The position numbers and the translations under genes are program-made. From Gemella sp. zg-570 (GTDB lineage: Bacteria; Bacillota; Bacilli; Staphylococcales; Gemellaceae), in contig NZ_CP076443.1 in the NCBI RefSeq assembly GCF_018866345.1, positions 581,501-645,500 on the forward strand: DNA of 64,000 nucleotides, read 5' to 3'. Below the pieces are notes generated by a model. That model did no database searches. It was not told the DNA's origin and saw nothing but the letters and a program-made list of their open reading frames with translations. Shown here piece after piece: positions 6,501-19,325 of this stretch. Within the stretch, counting starts at the first letter, position 1. Every line of letters begins with the position of its first letter.

Positions 6501-6850
6501 AAATACAGAGTCAATCGGCAACTTATAGGATAAATTACCAGGTTTACGAGCAAGTTATGCGTCTTGAAGATAGGGGAAAGGCTATTGCAAACGGCCATAA
6601 TTCTTATATGGCTTACCACTATAACGGGCTTGATTTTGTCCCTTATGACGGCTACCACGCCAGACTACACAGGGGCGAGCGTGTCCTTACTGCTGAAGAG
6701 AATAAGGAGTATTCACAAGGTGGCAGGGGGGACACTGTAATTAATATTGACAAGGTTTATAATAATACTCCTCAGGATATTAGGAAGATAGCAAGGGAAC
6801 TTGACTATGAAATGCGTAAGCAAAAAATGGCTTTAGGGGGTGGTTTGTAA
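3527..6850 (+). CDS. Tail tape measure protein
   Basis: A 1107-residue protein that sets tail length and threads the tail lumen. I choose ATG 3527 because AGAAAGGAG (3511-3519) precedes it by 8 bases; an upstream frame extension lacks such a site. Residues about 70-350 match the TP901 tape-measure core (EYSRISDGIRKMA, AEAAGQLG, ATNLTATEAATSLARFSNVMG). A glycine/alanine-rich hydrophobic block near residues 630-680 would be the membrane-active segment, followed by a long charged helical region (about 720-990). By the usual rule of about 0.15 nm per residue the tail would be near 165 nm. Confidence 0.9.
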   Translation: MGVNSVGGLSLPPLYTEIRLKYGAFKSDMDKVASLATAKASEIEKRFSKLDNLASRMVSFGKKASLAVTAPLVTSGLAVSKFAIDYEQAFAGVRKTTEATEAEYSRISDGIRKMAKEIPASAVSIAQVAEAAGQLGIKKEDILKFSRVMIDLGNATNLTATEAATSLARFSNVMGTSADNVDRLGSTIVALGNNTATTEREIVEMGLRLAGAGKQVGLTEAQTLGLAAALSSVGIEAEMGGSAMSKLLVNIKLATSKGGEQLQKFASVAGLSADEFKLAFERDASSALQLFLQGLNDTGKSGQSAIEILSDMGIEEVRLRDTILRAASASDKFNEAQKIANKGWQDNNALQQEAQQRYKTTASQLQIAKNKFIDLGISLGSKLLPILNKGLDLVGRFMGLFDKLPQGLQSSIGAFALLAAAIGPVSLALGVVVKGFIKAKSAIGSFGTFAKNIFKKDLGQGTKTASTDFRLASSSIQADIQLLKRSLLELELQAKRANSSLARVGSGGFLAGANKASKGAKKGKNKGLNSPGLDTARFDVLTAKTKRLGDVSSDTSKKLKGLGSSSEKAGGLVLKAGSAVEKGGAGMAKSAKLLSKSSQALRAVGKGALFALPLIADVGFGFGGLATAATSAGAGLLGAGASLGSLALAAAPVVAGISAVALAGYGIYQAFTEQAVPAVDLYKKTSVETFKSVGPLYGQHVESVKKVSEQTQEEYNHFFNISKEIRTVAEGMYTGLYQNSEEGHRLIVEGAERFRNDYVAKVNQAKDETLQRFNELFSSSSELSKEAKEAFIKDAEETATKTILSAEERTKRIIELSEELKTAQGENARSIKDEIIRLTKEQDEETVTIVAKNKAEQEVILSNLKDRANEITQEHVAGIIEKINKLRDDTIEAAKTKKDEQLRLAEEFKARKEALNGQLTTDEKKTYEAMKKATVETYAKATKEAERLRSEGISKLRGEYSQFDKSLDFNTGKVKSWIDRVIEGILGLNRTKIQSQSATYRINYQVYEQVMRLEDRGKAIANGHNSYMAYHYNGLDFVPYDGYHARLHRGERVLTAEENKEYSQGGRGDTVINIDKVYNNTPQDIRKIARELDYEMRKQKMALGGGL

Positions 6851-14738: not shown

Positions 14739-15149
14739 ATGTTTGTAGTTTATCCAGCTATTTTTTATAAGGATAAGGAAAGTGAAAGCTTTAATGTGGT
14801 TTTCCCTGATTTTGATTATGGAGCAACTTTTGGGCAGGATTTGAAAGAGGCTTTTAAAATGGCACAAGATTATATTTGTTCTTGGTTGTATGATGATTTT
14901 ATTAAGGGAAATAAGCTTGTTAAGGCTTCTAGTATACATAATATTAAATTAGAAAATGACGGCTTTAGTATTTTAGAAGAAAGTTTTGTAACTTTGGTAA
15001 GTGCTGATTTGTTAGAATATGCTAAGAGAACAGAAAATAAAACGGTAAGGCGTAATGTTTCTATACCTAGTTATTTAAACGAATTGGTTAAGGAAAAAAA
15101 TATTAATGTTAGTCAGATTTTAAAAGAGGCTTTGTTAAAAGAATTATAG
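14739..15149 (+). CDS. Orphan HicB-family antitoxin-like protein
   Basis: A 136-residue protein with a HicB-like fold: an N-terminal partial RNase-H-like domain (YPAIFYKDKESESFNVVFPDFDYGATFGQDLKEAFKMAQ) and a C-terminal ribbon-helix-helix region (KTVRRNVSIPSYLNELVKEKNINVSQILKEALL). AGGAGG precedes it (14727-14732). HicB normally neutralises the HicA RNase and represses its own operon. No hicA-sized gene lies next to it, so this is a solitary HicB, as seen in several phages of streptococci. It has its own promoter and palindrome. It ends before a bidirectional terminator. Confidence 0.8.
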   Translation: MFVVYPAIFYKDKESESFNVVFPDFDYGATFGQDLKEAFKMAQDYICSWLYDDFIKGNKLVKASSIHNIKLENDGFSILEESFVTLVSADLLEYAKRTENKTVRRNVSIPSYLNELVKEKNINVSQILKEALLKEL

Positions 15150-15151
15150 GC

Positions 15152-15247
15152 TAAATTAAAAGAGAGTGTTTAACTCTCTTTTTGTGTGTCTATGTAATAT
15201 TTATATAGCTTTTCTGCTGTTTTTAGGGTCATGTTTTCTATTTTGCG
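15152..15247. repeat. 96-bp direct repeat, copy 1
   Basis: This stretch contains the terminator hairpin and the 3' part of the first minus-strand HTH gene. It is almost identical to 16461-16557 (one inserted T). Copies lie 1.3 kb apart in the same orientation, so recombination could delete or duplicate the genes between them. Confidence 0.9.
15158..15182. terminator. Bidirectional terminator
   Basis: AAAAGAGAGT (15158-15167) pairs with ACTCTCTTTT (15173-15182), with U runs available on both strands. It separates the plus-strand hicB-like gene from the converging minus-strand HTH gene. Confidence 0.8.
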
Positions 15248-15361
15248 GTCACCGTTTTTGAAAAATTGCATAGATGATATGGCTAGCCCTGTTTTTTTTG
15301 ATATTTTATAAGCTGTGTTTTCTTGTAAAACTTGGTTTATAATTTTGTATACTTCTTGCAT
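15170..15361 (-). CDS. Cassette 1 small helix-turn-helix protein
   Basis: A 63-residue protein with a Cro-like helix-turn-helix (about residues 16-40: AYKISKKTGLAISSMQFFKNG) and a C-terminal helix (NMTLKTAEKLYKYYIDTQKES). The last 25 residues are identical to the cassette 2 protein and closely similar to cassette 3. ATG 15361 follows AGAGGT on the minus strand. It lies downstream of a small hydrophobic peptide gene on the same strand. Likely a DNA-binding regulator of the cassette; role inferred. Confidence 0.75.
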   Translation of the reverse strand: MQEVYKIINQVLQENTAYKISKKTGLAISSMQFFKNGDRKIENMTLKTAEKLYKYYIDTQKES

Positions 15362-15373
15362 GGTTTTTTACCT

Positions 15374-15460
15374 CTATTTAAAAAATAATATGTATATTTG
15401 TAATATTAAAGTTATTAGTAAAATAACGAATGTTATTTTTTGGATTATATTTTTTTTCAT
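15374..15460 (-). CDS. Cassette 1 membrane micropeptide (possible)
   Basis: A 28-residue frame (MKKNIIQKITFVILLITLIL then a short polar-aromatic end) directly upstream of the HTH gene. It has two N-terminal lysines and one membrane-spanning stretch. No good ribosome-binding site precedes it, and its start overlaps the -10 of the antisense promoter, so translation is uncertain. Equivalent frames occur in cassettes 3 and 4. Confidence 0.35.
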   Translation of the reverse strand: MKKNIIQKITFVILLITLILQIYILFFK

Positions 15461-15474
15461 GGTATAATAAACGA

Positions 15475-15600
15475 TGTTCCTACTTTAGCCTTTCGGCTAA
15501 AGTGGTTCACTTAAAAAAGTTTATTAGAGCAGTTATTAAATTGATTATAGCTATTATGAAATTAATAGTTATTATGGTATTATCTTTTTTTGACTGTTCT
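15475..15600 (+). ncRNA. Cassette 1 antisense RNA (candidate)
   Basis: A plus-strand promoter TTGGAT-17-TATAAT (15440-15445, 15463-15468) with extended -10 (TGGTATAAT) would start RNA near 15475. It passes through the hairpin ACTTTAGCC-TTTC-GGCTAAAGT (15482-15503) and runs antisense to the 3' end of the toxin-like gene (15507-15629). The 3' end shown is a guess; no clear terminator is seen. Confidence 0.5.
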
Positions 15601-15629
15601 TTTCTTTTTCTAAGTCTTTTTTTGTTCAT
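15507..15629 (-). CDS. Cassette 1 toxin-like hydrophobic peptide
   Basis: A 40-residue peptide: a strongly basic N-terminus (MNKKRLRKRKEQSKK) followed by a single hydrophobic segment (TIITINFIIAIINLITALIN region). ATG 15629 is preceded on the minus strand by AAAGAAAGGAGGG. The promoter is near-consensus. This layout, with a convergent antisense promoter at the 3' end, is that of type I toxins (TxpA/BsrG-like membrane peptides of Bacillus prophages). Toxicity is inferred; the sequence is not a recognised family member. Confidence 0.65.
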   Translation of the reverse strand: MNKKRLRKRKEQSKKDNTIITINFIIAIINLITALINFFK

Positions 15630-15656
15630 CGTTTTCCCTCCTTTCTTTATATTATA

Positions 15657-15685
15657 ATTATACATCAAAAGAGATATATTGTCAA
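15657..15685 (-). promoter_or_regulatory. Cassette 1 toxin promoter
   Basis: On the minus strand TTGACA (15680-15685), 17 bases, TATAAT (15657-15662): full consensus at both elements. The -35 faces a plus-strand TTGACA at 15714-15719 in a short divergent region that is repeated upstream of cassette 2. Confidence 0.85.
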
Positions 15686-15735
15686 GAGTTTTTAGAGAAT
15701 TTTTTTAAAAAATTTGACAAAATATTTTAACGCAT

Positions 15736-15764
15736 AATAAACAAGCCTAAGGGTTTATTTTTTT
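15736..15764 (+). terminator. Terminator-like hairpin
   Basis: AATAAAC (15736-15742) pairs with GTTTATT (15753-15759), followed by a T run. It lies just downstream of a plus-strand TTGACA (15714-15719) that has only a weak -10, so it may end a very short transcript or be a remnant. Confidence 0.5.
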
Positions 15765-15825
15765 AAACAAAATTAAGTATGAATATATTTCCGGGTAATT
15801 AATTTATGAAAATAATTAAATTTTA

Positions 15826-15854
15826 TTGATTTTTATTTGGGAAAATGGTATATT
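15826..15854 (+). promoter_or_regulatory. Promoter for DUF2335-like gene pair
   Basis: TTGATT (15826-15831), 17 bases, TATATT (15849-15854), 25 bases before the first gene of the pair. It allows expression independent of phage late transcription. Confidence 0.65.
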
Positions 15855-15879
15855 TAATTAAACAGAGGAGGTTTTTACT

Positions 15880-16068
15880 ATGGATAAAAATGCAAAGTTA
15901 CATTTTTTAAATGGTATTTTATTAGCTTTTAATTTTAATTTTTTTAAAGTAGGTAAACCTAATTTTAAAACACATTTAGATGATAAAAAAAATTTAGAAA
16001 ATGATTTTAATAATATTAGTAAAGATTTTTTGGGAGTAACTAATGACTTCAAAGAAAGATATTGCTAA
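15880..16068 (+). CDS. Small protein upstream of DUF2335-like gene
   Basis: A 62-residue protein with AGAGGAGG at 15863-15870. It begins with a hydrophobic, aromatic stretch (LHFLNGILLAFNFNFFKVG) and continues with a charged Asn/Asp/Lys-rich part. It overlaps the next gene by 26 bases, suggesting translational coupling. Codon use is A-rich, unlike the G+T-rich phage late genes on either side. I do not recognise it. Confidence 0.65.
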   Translation: MDKNAKLHFLNGILLAFNFNFFKVGKPNFKTHLDDKKNLENDFNNISKDFLGVTNDFKERYC

Positions 16069-16453
16069 AAATAATGATATAAATAAAATTCAAAAACAAA
16101 TAGAGGCATTATCAAAAAAAGATAAATTATTACTTTTACAAAAAATAGAGATAACTGAAGAATATAGTGGGATGTTACCACCACCAGCAATGCTAAAGGA
16201 GTTTGACAATATAATTCCTAATGGTGCTGATAGATTGATGAAATTGTTAGAGGTAGAAGTTAAAGAACGCCATGAAAATAATAAAATTTATTTAAAGTAT
16301 ACTAGTGTGGGCTTGTATTTGGCTTTTGCTTTAGCTATAGGTGCATTTATAGGTGGTTTTTATTTGGCAGTTAAAGGAAATAATATAGGGGCTGCTATTT
16401 TAATTGGTTCTGTTTTATCTGGAGTGATAATTTCTTTTATAAAGGGTAAATAA
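16043..16453 (+). CDS. DUF2335-like membrane protein
   Basis: A 136-residue protein. Residues about 35-70 (SGMLPPPAMLKEFDNIIPNGADRLMKLLEVEVKERHEN) match the DUF2335 signature, a proline-containing segment followed by an amphipathic helix. Two membrane segments follow (about 90-110 and 115-132) and the end is basic. DUF2335 proteins are common in prophages and their function is not established. Independent promoter and A-rich composition mark this pair as a moron-like insert between cassettes 1 and 2; a host-benefit or exclusion role is speculation. Confidence 0.75.
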   Translation: MTSKKDIAKNNDINKIQKQIEALSKKDKLLLLQKIEITEEYSGMLPPPAMLKEFDNIIPNGADRLMKLLEVEVKERHENNKIYLKYTSVGLYLAFALAIGAFIGGFYLAVKGNNIGAAILIGSVLSGVIISFIKGK

Positions 16454-16460
16454 TATAATA

Positions 16461-16557
16461 TAAATTAAAAGAGAGTGTTTTAACTCTCTTTTTGTGTGTC
16501 TATGTAATATTTATATAGCTTTTCTGCTGTTTTTAGGGTCATGTTTTCTATTTTGCG
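16461..16557. repeat. 96-bp direct repeat, copy 2
   Basis: Second copy of the terminator-plus-HTH-3'-end repeat described at 15152-15247, differing by one extra T in the hairpin loop before the sequences diverge at 16558. Confidence 0.9.
16467..16492. terminator. Bidirectional terminator
   Basis: AAAAGAGAGT (16467-16476) pairs with ACTCTCTTTT (16483-16492). It ends the DUF2335-like pair on the plus strand and the cassette 2 HTH gene on the minus strand. Confidence 0.8.
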
Positions 16558-16671
16558 CTCGCCTGTTATGTATTTTTGGAGCATGTTTATGTTTAAGTTT
16601 GTAGCTTTTCCTATTTGGTAGGCTGTTATTTGACCGTTTAGTAATTTTTCTATGTGGTGTTGTATAATCAT
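16480..16671 (-). CDS. Cassette 2 small helix-turn-helix protein
   Basis: A 63-residue paralogue of the cassette 1 protein. The N-terminal half differs (HIEKLLNGQITAYQIGKATN), while the last 25 residues (from RKIENMTLK onward) are identical. ATG 16671 has AGGAGGT upstream on the minus strand. The change confined to the recognition half suggests a different DNA target with a shared C-terminal oligomerisation part; that reading is inference. Confidence 0.75.
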   Translation of the reverse strand: MIIQHHIEKLLNGQITAYQIGKATNLNINMLQKYITGERKIENMTLKTAEKLYKYYIDTQKES

Positions 16672-16741
16672 TTTTTTACCTCCTGAATATTTTATGTTGT
16701 GTGGGCTTGTATTTTTTATTTGTCCATGTTATAATTAAGCA

Positions 16742-16875
16742 AGATATAAGGAGGGGATTTTTCCCCAGCCTTATTATTTTAAAAATTTTTCAAACAACTC
16801 TACTAAAATTTTTAATATCTGTAAGGTGCAATATACTATATTAATTTTTATTAGTAGGGTTGAAATTTTTTTTTG
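16742..16875 (+). ncRNA. Cassette 2 antisense RNA (candidate)
   Basis: Plus-strand promoter TTGTAT-17-TATAAT (16707-16712, 16730-16735) with extended -10 (TGTTATAAT). The RNA would begin near 16742, fold ATAAGG-A-GGGG / CCCC-AG-CCTTAT (16745-16774), and run antisense across most of the toxin-like gene. A long inverted repeat (16795-16808 with 16846-16862) followed by T runs is a fitting terminator, giving about 135 nt. Confidence 0.6.
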
Positions 16876-16890
16876 TTTTTTCTTGCTCAT
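16774..16890 (-). CDS. Cassette 2 toxin-like hydrophobic peptide
   Basis: A 38-residue peptide with a basic start (MSKKKQKKIS) and a hydrophobic/amphipathic remainder (TLLIKINIVYCTLQILKILV then ELFEKFLK). ATG 16890 follows a strong AAGGAGGTGAG on the minus strand. Same design and position as the cassette 1 peptide, with little sequence identity. Its mRNA would end in the hairpin at 16745-16774. Confidence 0.65.
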   Translation of the reverse strand: MSKKKQKKISTLLIKINIVYCTLQILKILVELFEKFLK

Positions 16891-16912
16891 TTTCTCACCT
16901 CCTTATGTTTAT

Positions 16913-16941
16913 ATTATACTCTAAAAAGAGGTTAAAGTCAA
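16913..16941 (-). promoter_or_regulatory. Cassette 2 toxin promoter
   Basis: Minus strand TTGACT (16936-16941), 17 bases, TATAAT (16913-16918). It diverges from the promoter of the putative structured RNA; the two -35 elements are 28 bases apart. Confidence 0.8.
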
Positions 16942-16969
16942 GAGTTTTATGAGAATTTTTTTTAAAAAT

Positions 16970-16998
16970 TTGACAAAATATTTTAATTTTGTTAATAT
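16970..16998 (+). promoter_or_regulatory. Promoter for structured RNA / endolysin
   Basis: TTGACA (16970-16975), 17 bases, TAATAT (16993-16998). Transcription would begin near 17005, exactly where the first stem of the putative structured RNA starts. Confidence 0.75.
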
Positions 16999-17004
16999 GA
17001 TTTT

Positions 17005-17342
17005 AGAGATAAAAACCAATCCTTAGTGATTTAACCTATCTCTTTCTAAAACACTAATGTTAGTAAATCTATAGTGATATAGAAGTGTAATAGAAGCACG
17101 TTACACTGCTTGGCAGAGCTTAATAACTGTTCCTTTGCGATAAGCCTAAAAAGCACAACATAGGGAGTTAGTTTTAATAACTAATCGATTACTCCGTTCG
17201 GTAGTTTTTAACCGTTCCGTGCTTTGTATAACAGGGGTACGTTATACTGCCTACCACAGGCTTTGTGAGTGGTCTTTTAGTAGTGAGCGAAAAGAGAGTT
17301 AGCTATTCGTTATTTTGGCTTACTTTTGTAAGGCAATTTTAT
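17005..17342 (+). ncRNA. Putative structured phage RNA with internal repeat
   Basis: About 340 bases with no usable reading frame, less AT-rich than the flanks, and full of paired segments: AGAGATA/TATCTCT (17005-17011, 17037-17043); AGTGTAA/TTACACT (17084-17090, 17101-17107); AAAGCAC/GTGCTTT (17150-17156, 17219-17225) enclosing GGAGT/ACTCC and TAGTT/AACTA; GTATAAC/GTTATAC (17226-17232, 17241-17247); and a last stem CTTAC/GTAAG (17319-17323, 17328-17332). The second and fourth hairpins share loop and flanking sequence, so they form a repeated unit. It may be a separate RNA or a long leader of the endolysin gene. Not recognised as a known class. Confidence 0.6.
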
Positions 17343-17417
17343 TTTAAAAAGTAAATTTATAAGTTAATTTTAAGTCAATTTTTGGTTGGCTTTTTTATTT
17401 TGAAAGGAGTTTTTTTT

Positions 17418-18107
17418 ATGGTAACACAGACAGAAGCGATTAGTTGGGTAAAAAGTAAGATAGGGGGGCGTACTGATTTTGACGGTTGGTATGGTTCTCA
17501 GTGTGTGGATTTGATTATGGCTTATGTTTATGATAATTGGGGCGGTAAAGTTCACGGTAATGCTATTAATTATGTTAATAATGCTTTGCCAGCTGGTTTT
17601 AGGCGTTTTAAAAAGGGTGAGGTTACTATTCAACCAGGTGATATTGTGGTATGGAATATTACTTTACCTTGGGGGCATATTGGCATTTGTACGGCTGTAA
17701 ATGGAGGTTTGCTTACTTGTGTTGAGCAAAATGTAGACGGCAACGCAGACGCTTTGACAAAGGGAGGCCCTGCAAGGGTTGTTAATAGGTATGATGGCTT
17801 GGTTGCCGCTATTATTAGGCCACCTTATGATGTTGATGGTGCAAATGATAGGGAGTGGACAAGGGTTCCTGAGAGTTGGCATTTTACGGTTACGGCTGGG
17901 TCTTTAAATGTTAGAAATGAGCCTAGGCTTGATTGTGAAGTGGTGGCTGTTTATAAAAGGGGTCAAGTTATTAATTATGATAGTTATTGCATAGCTAATG
18001 GTTATGTGTGGGTTTCTTATGTTTCTTCTAGTGGTAAGCGTAGGTTTGTTGCGACTGGTACTTTTAGGGATAATAAAAACCAAATGGAATTTGGCCATTT
18101 TAGATAG
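17418..18107 (+). CDS. Endolysin with CHAP and SH3b domains
   Basis: A 229-residue protein; ATG 17418 follows GAAAGGAG (17402-17409). Residues about 5-125 form a CHAP domain, with the catalytic Cys in GSQCVDLI (near residue 29), the His in WGHIGIC and downstream acidic residue, a papain-like amidase/endopeptidase that cuts peptidoglycan. Residues about 155-225 (TVTAGSLNVRNEPRLDCEVVAVYKRGQVI) are a bacterial SH3 wall-binding domain. No signal peptide, so release depends on the holin. It is unusually separated from the holin by 2.8 kb. Confidence 0.9.
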   Translation: MVTQTEAISWVKSKIGGRTDFDGWYGSQCVDLIMAYVYDNWGGKVHGNAINYVNNALPAGFRRFKKGEVTIQPGDIVVWNITLPWGHIGICTAVNGGLLTCVEQNVDGNADALTKGGPARVVNRYDGLVAAIIRPPYDVDGANDREWTRVPESWHFTVTAGSLNVRNEPRLDCEVVAVYKRGQVINYDSYCIANGYVWVSYVSSSGKRRFVATGTFRDNKNQMEFGHFR

Positions 18108-18110
18108 TTT

Positions 18111-18132
18111 AAGGGAGCTTATTTGCTCCCTT
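18111..18132. terminator. Bidirectional terminator after endolysin
   Basis: AAGGGAGC (18111-18118) pairs with GCTCCCTT (18125-18132), followed by T run on the plus strand. It also overlaps the end of the converging cassette 3 HTH gene. Confidence 0.85.
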
Positions 18133-18307
18133 TTTTTGTTTGTTTGTAGTAGTTGTATAGTTTTTCTGCTGTGGCTAGTGTCATGTTGTCTATTTTGTTA
18201 ATACCGTTTTTGTAGCGTTGTATTGTTGTTGGGTTTAGGTTTAGACTTTTAGCTATTGTGTAGGCTGTAATATTGCTGTTTAGTAGTTTTTCTATTTCTT
18301 TTTTCAT
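18119..18307 (-). CDS. Cassette 3 small helix-turn-helix protein
   Basis: A 62-residue protein (MKKEIEKLLNSNITAYTIAK...) with the same helix-turn-helix layout and a C-terminal NMTLATAEKLYNYYKQTKKGS segment that matches cassettes 1 and 2 at most positions. ATG 18307 uses the GGAG inside the preceding micropeptide frame. Third member of a paralogous set within 3.1 kb. Confidence 0.75.
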   Translation of the reverse strand: MKKEIEKLLNSNITAYTIAKSLNLNPTTIQRYKNGINKIDNMTLATAEKLYNYYKQTKKGSK

Positions 18308-18310
18308 GTT

Positions 18311-18409
18311 TTATTCTCCTTTTTTATTCTCCTTGTTTTTTAGGTATAGACTTATTATAAATTTTACTAATGCTAATATTATAAAAAATATTCCTAGTTT
18401 TAATATCAT
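18311..18409 (-). CDS. Cassette 3 membrane micropeptide (possible)
   Basis: A 32-residue frame (MILKLGIFFIILALVKFIIS then a lysine-rich end) ending three bases before the HTH start, as if co-translated. One membrane segment with a positive C-terminus. There is no clear ribosome-binding site before it, so translation is uncertain. Confidence 0.4.
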   Translation of the reverse strand: MILKLGIFFIILALVKFIISLYLKNKENKKGE

Positions 18410-18447
18410 TTTGTTTACTTTAACTTGAAATTTGTTATAATTATAGG

Positions 18448-18510
18448 TAAGGGGATTTCTCCCCTTAATCTTAATTTATTAATTTTGATATTAATATTAA
18501 GATTATACCT
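18448..18510 (+). ncRNA. Cassette 3 antisense RNA (candidate)
   Basis: Plus-strand TATAAT at 18436-18441 with extended TG (TTGTTATAAT) and a weak -35 (TTTACT, 16-base spacing). RNA would begin near 18448 at the stem TAAGGGG/CCCCTTA (18448-18454, 18461-18467), then AATCTTAAT/ATTAAGATT (18467-18475, 18496-18504), overlapping the 3' end of the toxin-like gene. The 3' end is not defined. Confidence 0.5.
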
Positions 18511-18584
18511 ATAATTAAGTCTATCAGTGCGTCTAATAGTAGTTTTTCCCACTGTATAGGCTTTTTATTTTGTTTAGGTTTCAA
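18471..18584 (-). CDS. Cassette 3 toxin-like hydrophobic peptide
   Basis: A 37-residue peptide starting at TTG 18584, with AAAGAAAGGAGC upstream. Basic start (MKPKQNKKPIQWEK) and a strongly hydrophobic helix (LLLDALIDLIIGIILILISK). The leader carries GTAAAGTT/AACTTTAC (18613-18620, 18627-18634), a stem just upstream of the ribosome-binding site, a feature known from type I toxin mRNAs where translation is held back. Toxin function inferred. Confidence 0.65.
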   Translation of the reverse strand: MKPKQNKKPIQWEKLLLDALIDLIIGIILILISKLIN

Positions 18585-18641
18585 GCTTTATTGCTCCTTT
18601 CTTTATTTTTTAGTAAAGTTTTTATCAACTTTACATATATT

Positions 18642-18670
18642 ATTATACACAATATTGTCTGTTTTGTCAA
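18642..18670 (-). promoter_or_regulatory. Cassette 3 toxin promoter
   Basis: Minus strand TTGACA (18665-18670), 17 bases, TATAAT (18642-18647): perfect consensus elements with consensus spacing. Confidence 0.85.
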
Positions 18671-18753
18671 GTGTTTTTTATGATTTTTTTAATATTTTAC
18701 ATAAATAAAGTGTATAGAAAAAGAGAAAAAGTATTAAAAAAGAGAAAAAAATA

Positions 18754-18782
18754 TTGGCAAGAACAATATAATATTGTATAAT
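18754..18782 (+). promoter_or_regulatory. Cassette 4 toxin promoter
   Basis: Plus strand TTGGCA (18754-18759), 17 bases, TATAAT (18777-18782). Cassettes 3 and 4 are divergent from this region. Confidence 0.8.
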
Positions 18783-18813
18783 ATTATTATCAAGCTAGAA
18801 AGGTGTTAAAAGC

Positions 18814-18939
18814 TTGAAAAAGTGGGATGAAAAAATCGACGAAATCAAAGACTTCATCGACAAGTTGGTTTTGTTGGTATTATCACTTGGAACTTTAGCT
18901 AGTTTGATTAAGTGGATAATACAAACATTATTAAAATAA
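18814..18939 (+). CDS. Cassette 4 toxin-like hydrophobic peptide
   Basis: A 41-residue peptide beginning at TTG 18814 with AGAAAGGTG at 18797-18804. The N-terminal part is charged (MKKWDEKIDEIKDFIDK), more acidic than in the other three, and the rest is one membrane helix (LVLLVLSLGTLASLIKWIIQ). It is followed by the hairpin AGGGGC-GAAA-GCCCCT (18946-18961). Same cassette design on the opposite strand. Confidence 0.65.
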   Translation: MKKWDEKIDEIKDFIDKLVLLVLSLGTLASLIKWIIQTLLK

Positions 18940-18964
18940 TTATATAGGGGCGAAAGCCCCTAAT
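18830..18964 (-). ncRNA. Cassette 4 antisense RNA (candidate)
   Basis: Minus-strand promoter TTGTTA-17-TATAAT (18994-18999, 18971-18976) with extended -10 (TGTTATAAT). The RNA would start near 18964, form the stem AGGGGC/GCCCCT and run antisense into the toxin-like gene. The left end is approximate. Confidence 0.5.
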
Positions 18965-19004
18965 AATTGAATTATAACATTTTTTTAAGTTTATAACAAG
19001 AGGT

Positions 19005-19097
19005 ATGAAAGATTTATTTTTAAATATTGGTGGTTTAATTGTAAAAATACTTATTTTATGTGTTACTATATATGTTTTTTATAAAATGTTAGTATAG
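19005..19097 (+). CDS. Cassette 4 membrane micropeptide
   Basis: A 30-residue frame (MKDLFLNIGGLIVKILILCV then TIYVFYKMLV) with CAAGAGGT just before ATG 19005, better supported than its counterparts in cassettes 1 and 3. One membrane segment. It lies between the toxin hairpin and the HTH gene. Function unknown. Confidence 0.5.
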   Translation: MKDLFLNIGGLIVKILILCVTIYVFYKMLV

Positions 19098-19130
19098 CTA
19101 TATATATTTGAACTTAAGGAGGTGAAGATT

Positions 19131-19325
19131 TTGGAAAAATTAACGTTAAAGATGCTAAGGGTTAAGTTTAATTTGTCGCAAGATGAAGTGGCTGGGCGTT
19201 TGAATATATCCGCTGCGACTTGGAGCAAGTGGGAAAGAGCTATTAATTTCCCTAGTGTACCAGATATTAAAAAAATAGAAAAACTTTTTAATATCACTTA
19301 TGCTGATATTGATTTTAAAATATAA
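19131..19325 (+). CDS. Cassette 4 XRE-family helix-turn-helix protein
   Basis: A 64-residue protein starting at TTG 19131, 6 bases after TAAGGAGGTG (19115-19124); a GTG at 19122 lies inside that site. It is a complete Cro/C1-type domain (MEKLTLKMLRVKFNLSQDEV, then AGRLNISAATWSKWE as the HTH). It belongs to a different XRE subfamily than the three minus-strand proteins, yet occupies the same place in the cassette. Regulator role is inferred. Confidence 0.8.
   Translation: MEKLTLKMLRVKFNLSQDEVAGRLNISAATWSKWERAINFPSVPDIKKIEKLFNITYADIDFKI

Follow-up and report, generated by a model that had tools for sequence, protein, structure and literature searches.

Prophage cassettes of Gemella sp. zg-570 that probably place type I toxin-like peptide pairs under an AcrIIA15/Aca11-type autorepressor

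Introduction

Why should a prophage carry at its end, around a single endolysin gene, four copies of a small gene cassette whose peptides do not resemble one another? The cassettes lie in a 64-kb stretch of Gemella sp. zg-570 DNA (contig NZ_CP076443.1), here called the window, to which all coordinates refer. Three of them are on the minus strand and one is on the plus strand, and each has the same order: a sense promoter, a small peptide gene (p1), a stem-loop past the p1 stop, a convergent promoter and a helix-turn-helix (HTH) gene. A preliminary description had reported these four cassettes and had read them as type I toxin–antitoxin-like units with a DNA-binding protein as a regular third part; all four are in place, in that order. 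It did not notice p2, a second small hydrophobic open reading frame (ORF) between p1 and the HTH gene, nor the kinship of three of the HTHs with AcrIIA15 and Aca11, nor the exchange of cassette cores. From comparison with related loci, we consider it probable that the cassette is a two-peptide module of type-I-like character, controlled by an Aca-type autorepressor that it encodes itself, and that it is exchanged as a unit.

Conservation of the peptide frames

Of 198 HTH hits, 113 had non-redundant upstream DNA, and 107 of these had a score of at least 50 and at least 420 nt upstream; since the loci are related, all counts over them overstate the independent evidence. Among the 107, p1 was found mechanically in 48 (1.7 in shuffles; 8 in the reverse-complement control), p2 in 35 (0.1 and 1), and a GC stem in 58 (1.0 and 12). 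When similarity to the seeds is added (E ≤0.01), p1 is present in 72 loci, p2 in 46, both in 42 and either in 76. The HTH protein was thus rightly described as a regular third part, and the opposite outcome, HTH genes standing mostly without the unit, is not what the relatives display, as only 31 of the 107 lack both peptides.

The peptide frames had been expected to be conserved across relatives, and frame-specific purifying selection was found. The ratio of non-synonymous to synonymous change (pN/pS) is 0.44 for p1 (78 pairs; 0.82 and 1.07 in the shifted frames) and 0.26 for p2 (94 pairs; 0.84 and 1.39); amino-acid changes are thus selected against in both. Across the 20 locus pairs that hold all three genes, pS is 0.364 for p1, as against 0.584 for p2 and 0.599 for the HTH gene; a lowered synonymous change in p1 is what would be expected if an RNA function overlies it. 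Within a locus, p1 and p2 resemble each other more than permuted pairs do (39.5 vs 24.8, p 0.0002, 22 loci), which suggests that they are partners or duplicates. The peptides compared with NCBIfam and Pfam gave no match above a family's cut-off.

At a stricter threshold (E ≤0.001), 56 p1 frames are intact and 15 are without start and Shine–Dalgarno sequence (SD), compared with 39 and 4 for p2; L072, which has masked letters, should leave the 15, and window cassette 1 is among the 4. This asymmetry of 15 to 4 is suggestive only. Five loci (L046, L058, L093, L113 and L125) have a p1-like frame without start plus SD and an intact-looking p2, and it is possible that in these the p1 gene is decaying before p2.

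The RNA layer

The RNA layer was studied in 50 p1 cassettes, namely 49 loci and window cassette 4. In 18 of them the 85 nt past the stop contain an exact complement, 9 nt or longer, of the p1 start region, against 0.4 in shuffles, and the duplex between the start and the 3′ untranslated region (UTR) has a mean z of -2.15, with 30 of the 50 below -1.64. The paired sequences vary by peptide type (phi 11 has GTGTAAGGAGG, phiSP38-1 has AAATAAATGAAGAA, and the second copy of cassette 2 in the window's genome has ATATAAGGAGG), and therefore it appears that the pairing is kept and not the sequence. In the window, the pairing is strong singly in cassettes 2 (z -3.0) and 4 (z -4.0), and in the predicted folds of all four cassettes the start region pairs with the 3′ part.

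Past the p1 stop, an antisense promoter scores at p<0.05 in 32 of the 50 cassettes. A TGnTATAAT-like element occurs on the antisense strand in 16, where 2.5 are expected, and on the sense strand in 2. A coarser scan of the 107 loci gave sense promoters in 57, against 33, with 69 in the reverse-complement control. Cassette 4 has in addition a clear terminator-like hairpin for the antisense RNA within p1. Sequestration of the start and an antisense RNA are typical of type I toxins. The control by RNA proposed in the preliminary description is supported by sequence over the relatives, also because the layout of the cassettes is that of yonT–SR6–yoyJ of Bacillus subtilis.

The HTH proteins and their operators

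The HTHs of cassettes 1–3 form one family, phrog_1529 (E 4e-15 to 1e-17). The structural model of the cassette 3 HTH has four helices (predicted local distance difference test, pLDDT, 93.5), and its best match among solved folds is the N-terminal domain (NTD) of AcrIIA15 on palindromic DNA (template modelling score 0.90, 39% identity), followed by Aca11. The HTH profile likewise matches the AcrIIA15 NTD (E 5e-22) and Aca11 (E 2e-12). By sequence and model, then, these three belong to the AcrIIA15 NTD/Aca11 autorepressor family; that they are common XRE proteins was ruled out by this match. When the four window HTHs, two neighbours and two peptides were compared with PADLOC models, the cassette 3 HTH gave weak matches to RmrA (E 0.006) and CARF (E 0.014), the fourth HTH gave RmrA/HTH_VI matches (best 7e-7), and neither of the two peptides matched.

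According to the available part of PMC10901769, AcrIIA15 binds inverted repeats in its own promoter and represses it, and one of these, IR2, lies between -35 and -10. We had found palindromes at this very place in the p1 promoters before the AcrIIA15 match was seen. The search covered 37 promoters, as 13 of the 50 cassettes have no p1 promoter by rule, and 11 of the 37 have a spacer palindrome at p<0.05 (Fisher 2e-8); in the control regions the counts among 37 were 0, 5 (Fisher 0.057) and 3.

The palindromes go with the recognition helices. PYQTVQDL-type helices pair with TCACG...CGTGA before two peptide types; in Streptococcus phages an operator related to this one accompanies other peptides. 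SRAKIGRLR helices pair with TAGACGAAC..., again before two peptide types; the DASSIRRIRR helix pairs with AAAGGACAATTGTCCTT, and the SYGNINAMRRG helix with TATAGTTCA...TGAGCTATA. Of nine new non-redundant loci, three (L149, L166 and L167) could be scored, since each has p1, a promoter and a helix of known class, and each agrees with the rule; their peptides are class-like in at least two cases, so that this tests the operator rule and not its independence from the peptide. The evidence for autorepression in the HTH family is good, and that for operators in the window's own copies is weak. Given the helix–operator link, repressor specificity should be predictable and testable.

Some members of the family are longer. 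HTHs of more than 95 residues number 13 among the 113 non-redundant ones, and 4 of the 6 long proteins that were searched against solved structures contain an anti-CRISPR domain. In L055, an AcrIIA13 domain (E 2e-53) is in frame with the HTH, and the locus has p1 and p2; in L080, it is the domain of 8K4M, “Anti CRISPR protein” (4e-66), with p1 and a p2-like frame; and in L075, an AcrIIA15 domain (5e-50), with p1 and p2 by similarity. The fourth, L081, has an AcrIIA13 domain, repeats at its own promoter and no p1. In L090 (from 1501) and L014 (1498-1974), p1 is present and the HTH continues in frame into a C-terminal domain that matches no solved structure; these two domains are anti-CRISPR candidates.

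Exchange of cassette cores

The same genome contains a further stretch, L116 (G000:C1:1003000-1010000), that is likely a second prophage end. Window positions 17061-18140 recur there without change, and from 18681 on the identity is 92–100% per 60-nt block; between about 18200 and 18650, the core of cassette 3, the two stretches are only 35–73% alike. In L116, then, the endolysin and cassettes 2 and 4 recur and cassette 3 is replaced, and the divergent core spans from the recognition-helix half of the HTH gene to the promoter. This is a directly observed swap of one cassette core. Within the window, cassettes 1 and 2 are likewise similar on both flanks, in the C-terminal half of the HTH and in the DNA ahead of the promoter, and dissimilar in the stretch that these enclose. 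The peptides had been described as alike in design and not in sequence, which holds inside the window, since operator, peptides, antisense RNA and recognition helix would move together; outside the window it does not hold, as homologues are found (the p1 peptides of cassette 1 and L006 are 44% identical over 34 residues, E 2e-5). L116 also contains a further small ORF (517-660) that resembles, by eye, the Streptococcus phage peptide of phrog_3399, with a small HTH-like ORF (198-392) nearby.

The four cassettes of the window

The sense promoters all have 17-nt spacing, with 12, 11, 12 and 11 of the 12 consensus bases in cassettes 1–4, and the convergent promoters all contain TGnTATAAT; on these points, as on the stem-loops just past the stops, the preliminary description was accurate. 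It had also placed an HTH gene in each cassette, and there are four such genes. The p1 peptides have 40, 38, 37 and 41 residues (aa) and the HTHs 63, 63, 62 and 64. The start codon TTG occurs in cassettes 3 and 4.

Cassette 1, on the minus strand, opens with TTGACA-17-TATAAT (15657-15685). Its p1 (15507-15629) has a charged N-terminus and one hydrophobic stretch and is followed by the stem-loop (15479-15505) and by a 3′ UTR element (15469-15476) that in the predicted fold is the complement of the start-codon region 15627-15634 (z -0.6). The antisense promoter, TTGGAT-17-TATAAT with the TG extension, is at 15440-15468 on the plus strand; p2 (28 aa) is at 15374-15460, and the HTH gene, of the phrog_1529/AcrIIA15-NTD family, at 15170-15361.

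In cassette 2, also on the minus strand, the promoter is TTGACT-17-TATAAT (16913-16941), with p1 at 16774-16890 and the stem-loop at 16753-16766. The 3′ UTR holds an anti-SD (16746-16754), a 9-nt complement of the p1 ribosome-binding site at 16898-16906. TTGTAT-17-TATAAT with the TG extension (16707-16735, plus strand) is the putative antisense promoter, and the HTH gene of the AcrIIA15-NTD family is at 16480-16671.

The third minus-strand cassette, cassette 3, has TTGACA-17-TATAAT at 18642-18670, with the palindrome ACAATATTGT in the spacer. Next are p1 (18471-18584, TTG start), the stem-loop (18448-18467) and a 3′ UTR element (18422-18430) complementary to the p1 start region 18579-18587 (z -0.7). 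The antisense promoter TTTACT-16-TATAAT, TG-extended, lies at 18414-18441 on the plus strand, p2 (32 aa) at 18311-18409 and the HTH gene of the AcrIIA15-NTD family, whose product was modelled, at 18119-18307.

Cassette 4, on the plus strand, begins with TTGGCA-17-TATAAT (18754-18782) and an AT-rich palindrome. Its p1 (18814-18939, TTG start) matches phrog_38429 (E 7e-4); the stem-loop is at 18945-18962, and the 3′ UTR element at 18978-18998 is the complement of the start region 18803-18822. On the minus strand are the antisense promoter TTGTTA-17-TATAAT with the TG extension (18971-18999) and, inside p1, the terminator-like hairpin of the antisense RNA (18835-18861, 12 pairs). A hydrophobic p2 of 30 aa (19005-19097) and the HTH gene (19131-19325) complete the cassette.

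Neighbouring features and distribution

Between cassettes 2 and 3 is the endolysin gene (17418-18107, plus strand), with CHAP (1e-11) and SH3_5 (3e-13) domains detected on the frame 17382-18107; the ATG at 17418 was chosen by eye. Between cassette 2 and the endolysin lies a Bacilli-1 RNA (RF02931, 76.5 bits, 17067-17131), and DNA like this stretch occurs in Streptococcus phages and satellite phages. It was the only Rfam family to reach its cut-off over the region, RefA9 and RT-6 remaining below theirs; a search of seven relatives gave a single match, S808 inside the phi 11 endolysin gene. A gene for a DUF2335 membrane protein (16043-16453, phrog_3996) lies between cassettes 1 and 2, and a HicB-like antitoxin gene (phrog_497, 1.7e-26) is at 14739-15149.

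Matches to phrog_1529 occur in 26 of 60 genomes and in 7 of the 15 of the window's family, its own genome included in both counts, and in 73 of 81 sampled genomes, often in multiple copies, of the genus of relative G035, taken as Staphylococcus. The window's host belongs to the order of Staphylococcus. Four loci taken as Staphylococcus (L103–L106) have 4–5 HTH genes within a few kb, and similarly spaced clusters are found in the viral contigs L046, L063 and L064.

In phages, tblastn with the cassette 3 HTH gave 68 records: 50 of Staphylococcus, 16 of Streptococcus and one each of Xanthomonas and Latilactobacillus. With p1 as the query, type B gave 36 records, type A 1 and type C 0, these queries being short or K-rich. 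No close relative of the fourth HTH was confirmed in viral contigs. Of the 16 phage records viewed, 7 have an annotated lysin or amidase next to the HTH region (phi 11, phiSP38-1, Javan110, SAP13, phiARI0923, IME1367_01 and S-CoN_Ph25), and in 2, StauST398-3 and IME1367_01, an attachment site is just beyond it; in other records the surroundings are different or unnamed, or the record begins at the HTH. In phi 11 the cassette is unannotated and lies between the endolysin and the end of the record. The large Staphylococcus phages AH12 (265 kb) and PB50 (274 kb; loci L040 and L170) carry the HTH family of cassettes 1–3, and no p1 was found upstream of the HTH in either locus.

Function and rival explanations

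How would such a cassette work? We propose that each is an operon of a mobile element, p1–(p2)–HTH, in which p1 would encode a membrane-active, probably toxic peptide and be transcribed from a near-consensus promoter. In the folded p1 mRNA the 3′ UTR would cover the start region by base pairing, and an antisense RNA, initiated a little beyond the stem-loop that follows the p1 stop, would be transcribed back through p1. Both p2, a putative membrane peptide resembling its own p1, and the HTH would be expressed by read-through. In cassettes 1–3, repression of the operon may come from the HTH, which would bind as a dimer to an inverted repeat in the -35/-10 spacer of the p1 promoter. The promoter with its operator, p1, the antisense RNA, p2 and the recognition helix would be exchanged as one block between conserved anchors, and neighbouring cassettes would thereby keep separate switches. 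While the element is resident, the locks would be closed; once it is lost, or when it enters a naive cell, p1 mRNA would escape, resulting in addiction or exclusion.

The case for the architecture and the RNA layer is strong, and statistics over relatives support the frames, the start pairing, the antisense promoters, the spacer palindromes and the helix–operator link. Several points, in addition to the kinship of the loci, weigh against the two-peptide autorepressed module. Neither peptide was found in nearly a third of the HTH loci; inspection of the ORFs revealed no p2 in cassette 2, and the p2 genes of cassettes 1 and 3 have no clear ribosome-binding site by eye. The fourth HTH is a different XRE protein (Pfam HTH_3 4.5e-10; phrog_8), so that a single HTH family spans three cassettes and not four. 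Start pairing in cassettes 1 and 3 is not significant alone, nor are the window's own palindromes (p 0.41, 0.69, 0.37 and 0.055 in cassettes 1–4). Antisense terminator-like hairpins are but mildly enriched (26 of 50 vs 15.8), and the coarser antisense-promoter scan of the 107 loci, with 80 against 30.5, gave 58 in the reverse-complement control. As to the helix–operator link, the 29 p1-dissimilar pairs with helix identity of at least 0.6 share 48% of the spacer vs 30.5% when permuted (p 0.0002), at an identity cut-off chosen after the table had been seen and with a crude p1 score that calls some peptides of one broad type dissimilar. Over all 788 p1-dissimilar pairs there is no rank correlation between helix and spacer (rho -0.04, permutation p 0.77), and the link appears among similar helices only.

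It is tempting to go further, and tentatively we do, as a possibility that falls short of an even chance. Type-I-toxin-like peptide pairs and anti-CRISPRs may share one chassis, an undescribed operon class made of an Aca-type autorepressor, a promoter-embedded operator and a p1/p2 leader, whose cores are swapped as insulated units, and such insulated exchange would allow several orthogonal switches per genome. Any other element with that operator, whether co-resident or incoming, would draw the repressor away and so release the peptide, giving addiction and kin-specific exclusion, with the anti-CRISPR as optional cargo.

The main rival is that the cassettes are counter-defence operons of the acr–aca kind, in which p1 and p2 are small anti-defence peptides produced in a short burst as the phage enters, the HTH acts as the Aca that brings this burst to a close, and RNA control only makes the shut-off tighter. 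The homology of the HTHs to the AcrIIA15 NTD and Aca11 speaks for this, as do the three p1 cassettes whose HTH is fused in frame to an anti-CRISPR domain (L055, L080 and L075), and genes upstream of aca in one operon are the usual acr layout in the available part of PMC10901769. Yet the p1 and p2 peptides that were searched, in a comparison that used no anti-CRISPR library, matched only PHROGs of unknown function and marginal ones, and family searches of the window cassettes gave no known anti-CRISPR family. Sequestration of the start together with an antisense RNA is characteristic of type I toxins and not of acr genes. Moreover, no Cas9 (TIGR01865) is present in the window's genome, although 9 of the 15 genomes of its family have it. 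We therefore regard this explanation as doubtful, and the type-I-like module as the better account.

Might the peptides instead be lysis proteins, holin- or antiholin-like, that RNA and HTH tune for the timing of lysis? The cassettes flank an endolysin, as lysin or amidase genes lie beside the HTH region in the phage records listed above, and a marginal match to a holin (phrog_785, E 0.06) exists for the cassette 3 p1; three of the four window cassettes, however, are on the strand opposite the endolysin, and every operon comes with a near-consensus promoter of its own and with a repressor whose family is known to act in early shut-off. The clusters of 4–5 HTH genes in genomes, where the HTH genes alone were looked at, also count against lysis timing, and we consider it improbable. 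Finally, it is hardly credible that only the HTH gene is real and that the AT-richness of the leader DNA produced the peptides, stems and antisense promoters by chance: promoter-like strings do arise in such DNA (29 vs 22.0, sd 4.4, in the window region) and there are the loci without peptides, but enrichment over dinucleotide shuffles and frame-specific purifying selection already contradict it and rule out chance ORFs.

The type-I-like module under an Aca-type autorepressor would join two fields that have been studied apart, type I toxin–antitoxin modules and anti-CRISPR regulation, in a layout that sits unannotated in the record of a phage as well studied as phi 11. If p1 and p2 are toxic, some anti-CRISPR loci would have an addiction arm; if they are anti-defence peptides, type-I-like RNA control extends to counter-defence.

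Comparison with known systems

A full-text literature search, which left most subscription journals outside and was not aimed at the Aca11/AcrIIA13–15 loci, gave no title or opening of an abstract that describes a p1–p2–HTH cassette. SAS028/teg102 of Staphylococcus aureus was considered as a published case and rejected, being described as lactococcin 972-like in the available part of PMC3386247.

There are several partial parallels. The pair formed by a small membrane peptide and an antisense RNA, borne on a prophage, is familiar from TxpA/RatA and BsrG/SR4 of B. subtilis. SprG/SprF of S. aureus likewise has a small membrane peptide, an antisense RNA and a prophage location (PMC10579593, PMC6563280); unlike in the window, the available parts of these two papers mention no co-encoded repressor for SprG/SprF, TxpA/RatA or BsrG/SR4. 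Clostridioides difficile prophages resemble ours in having several type I modules each, for which prophage stabilisation has been proposed, and differ in that their toxins have 34–59 aa with a charged C-terminal region and that no HTH third gene is mentioned, as far as the excerpt of PMC6563280 goes.

The closest likeness on the RNA side is yonT/SR6/yoyJ of SPbeta, with a peptide, a stem past its stop, an extended -10 antisense promoter just downstream and a second small peptide. In the available part of PMC5848175, the first peptide is toxic, the second is a weaker toxin, and the polycistronic transcript is without typical terminators. In the SPbeta record (L173), the annotated stem is at 6668-6703, the antisense TATAAT is at 6713, and the stem holds, by eye, the complement of the yonT ribosome-binding site. 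The window cassettes have this layout, cassette 2 without the second peptide. Unlike them, the yonT locus has no HTH of the phrog_1529-type family as a third gene; YonU was ruled out as the missing one, since it gives 3 bits with the HTH profile and only weak coiled-coil-type models in Pfam. Family searches, made without direct comparison of the peptides, gave no family shared by YonT/YoyJ and the window peptides.

On the side of the repressor, the parallel is with the AcrIIA13, AcrIIA14 and AcrIIA15 loci and Aca11, which have the same HTH family with the repressor inside the operon that it controls, and and whose inverted repeat between -35 and -10 has counterparts in p1 promoters of relatives (available part of PMC10901769). 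In contrast to AcrIIA13–15, the window HTHs stand alone, with no anti-CRISPR domain, and their operons open with toxin-like peptides and a predicted antisense RNA. The two arrangements meet in L055, L080 and L075, where an anti-CRISPR domain and a p1 leader are combined in one locus.

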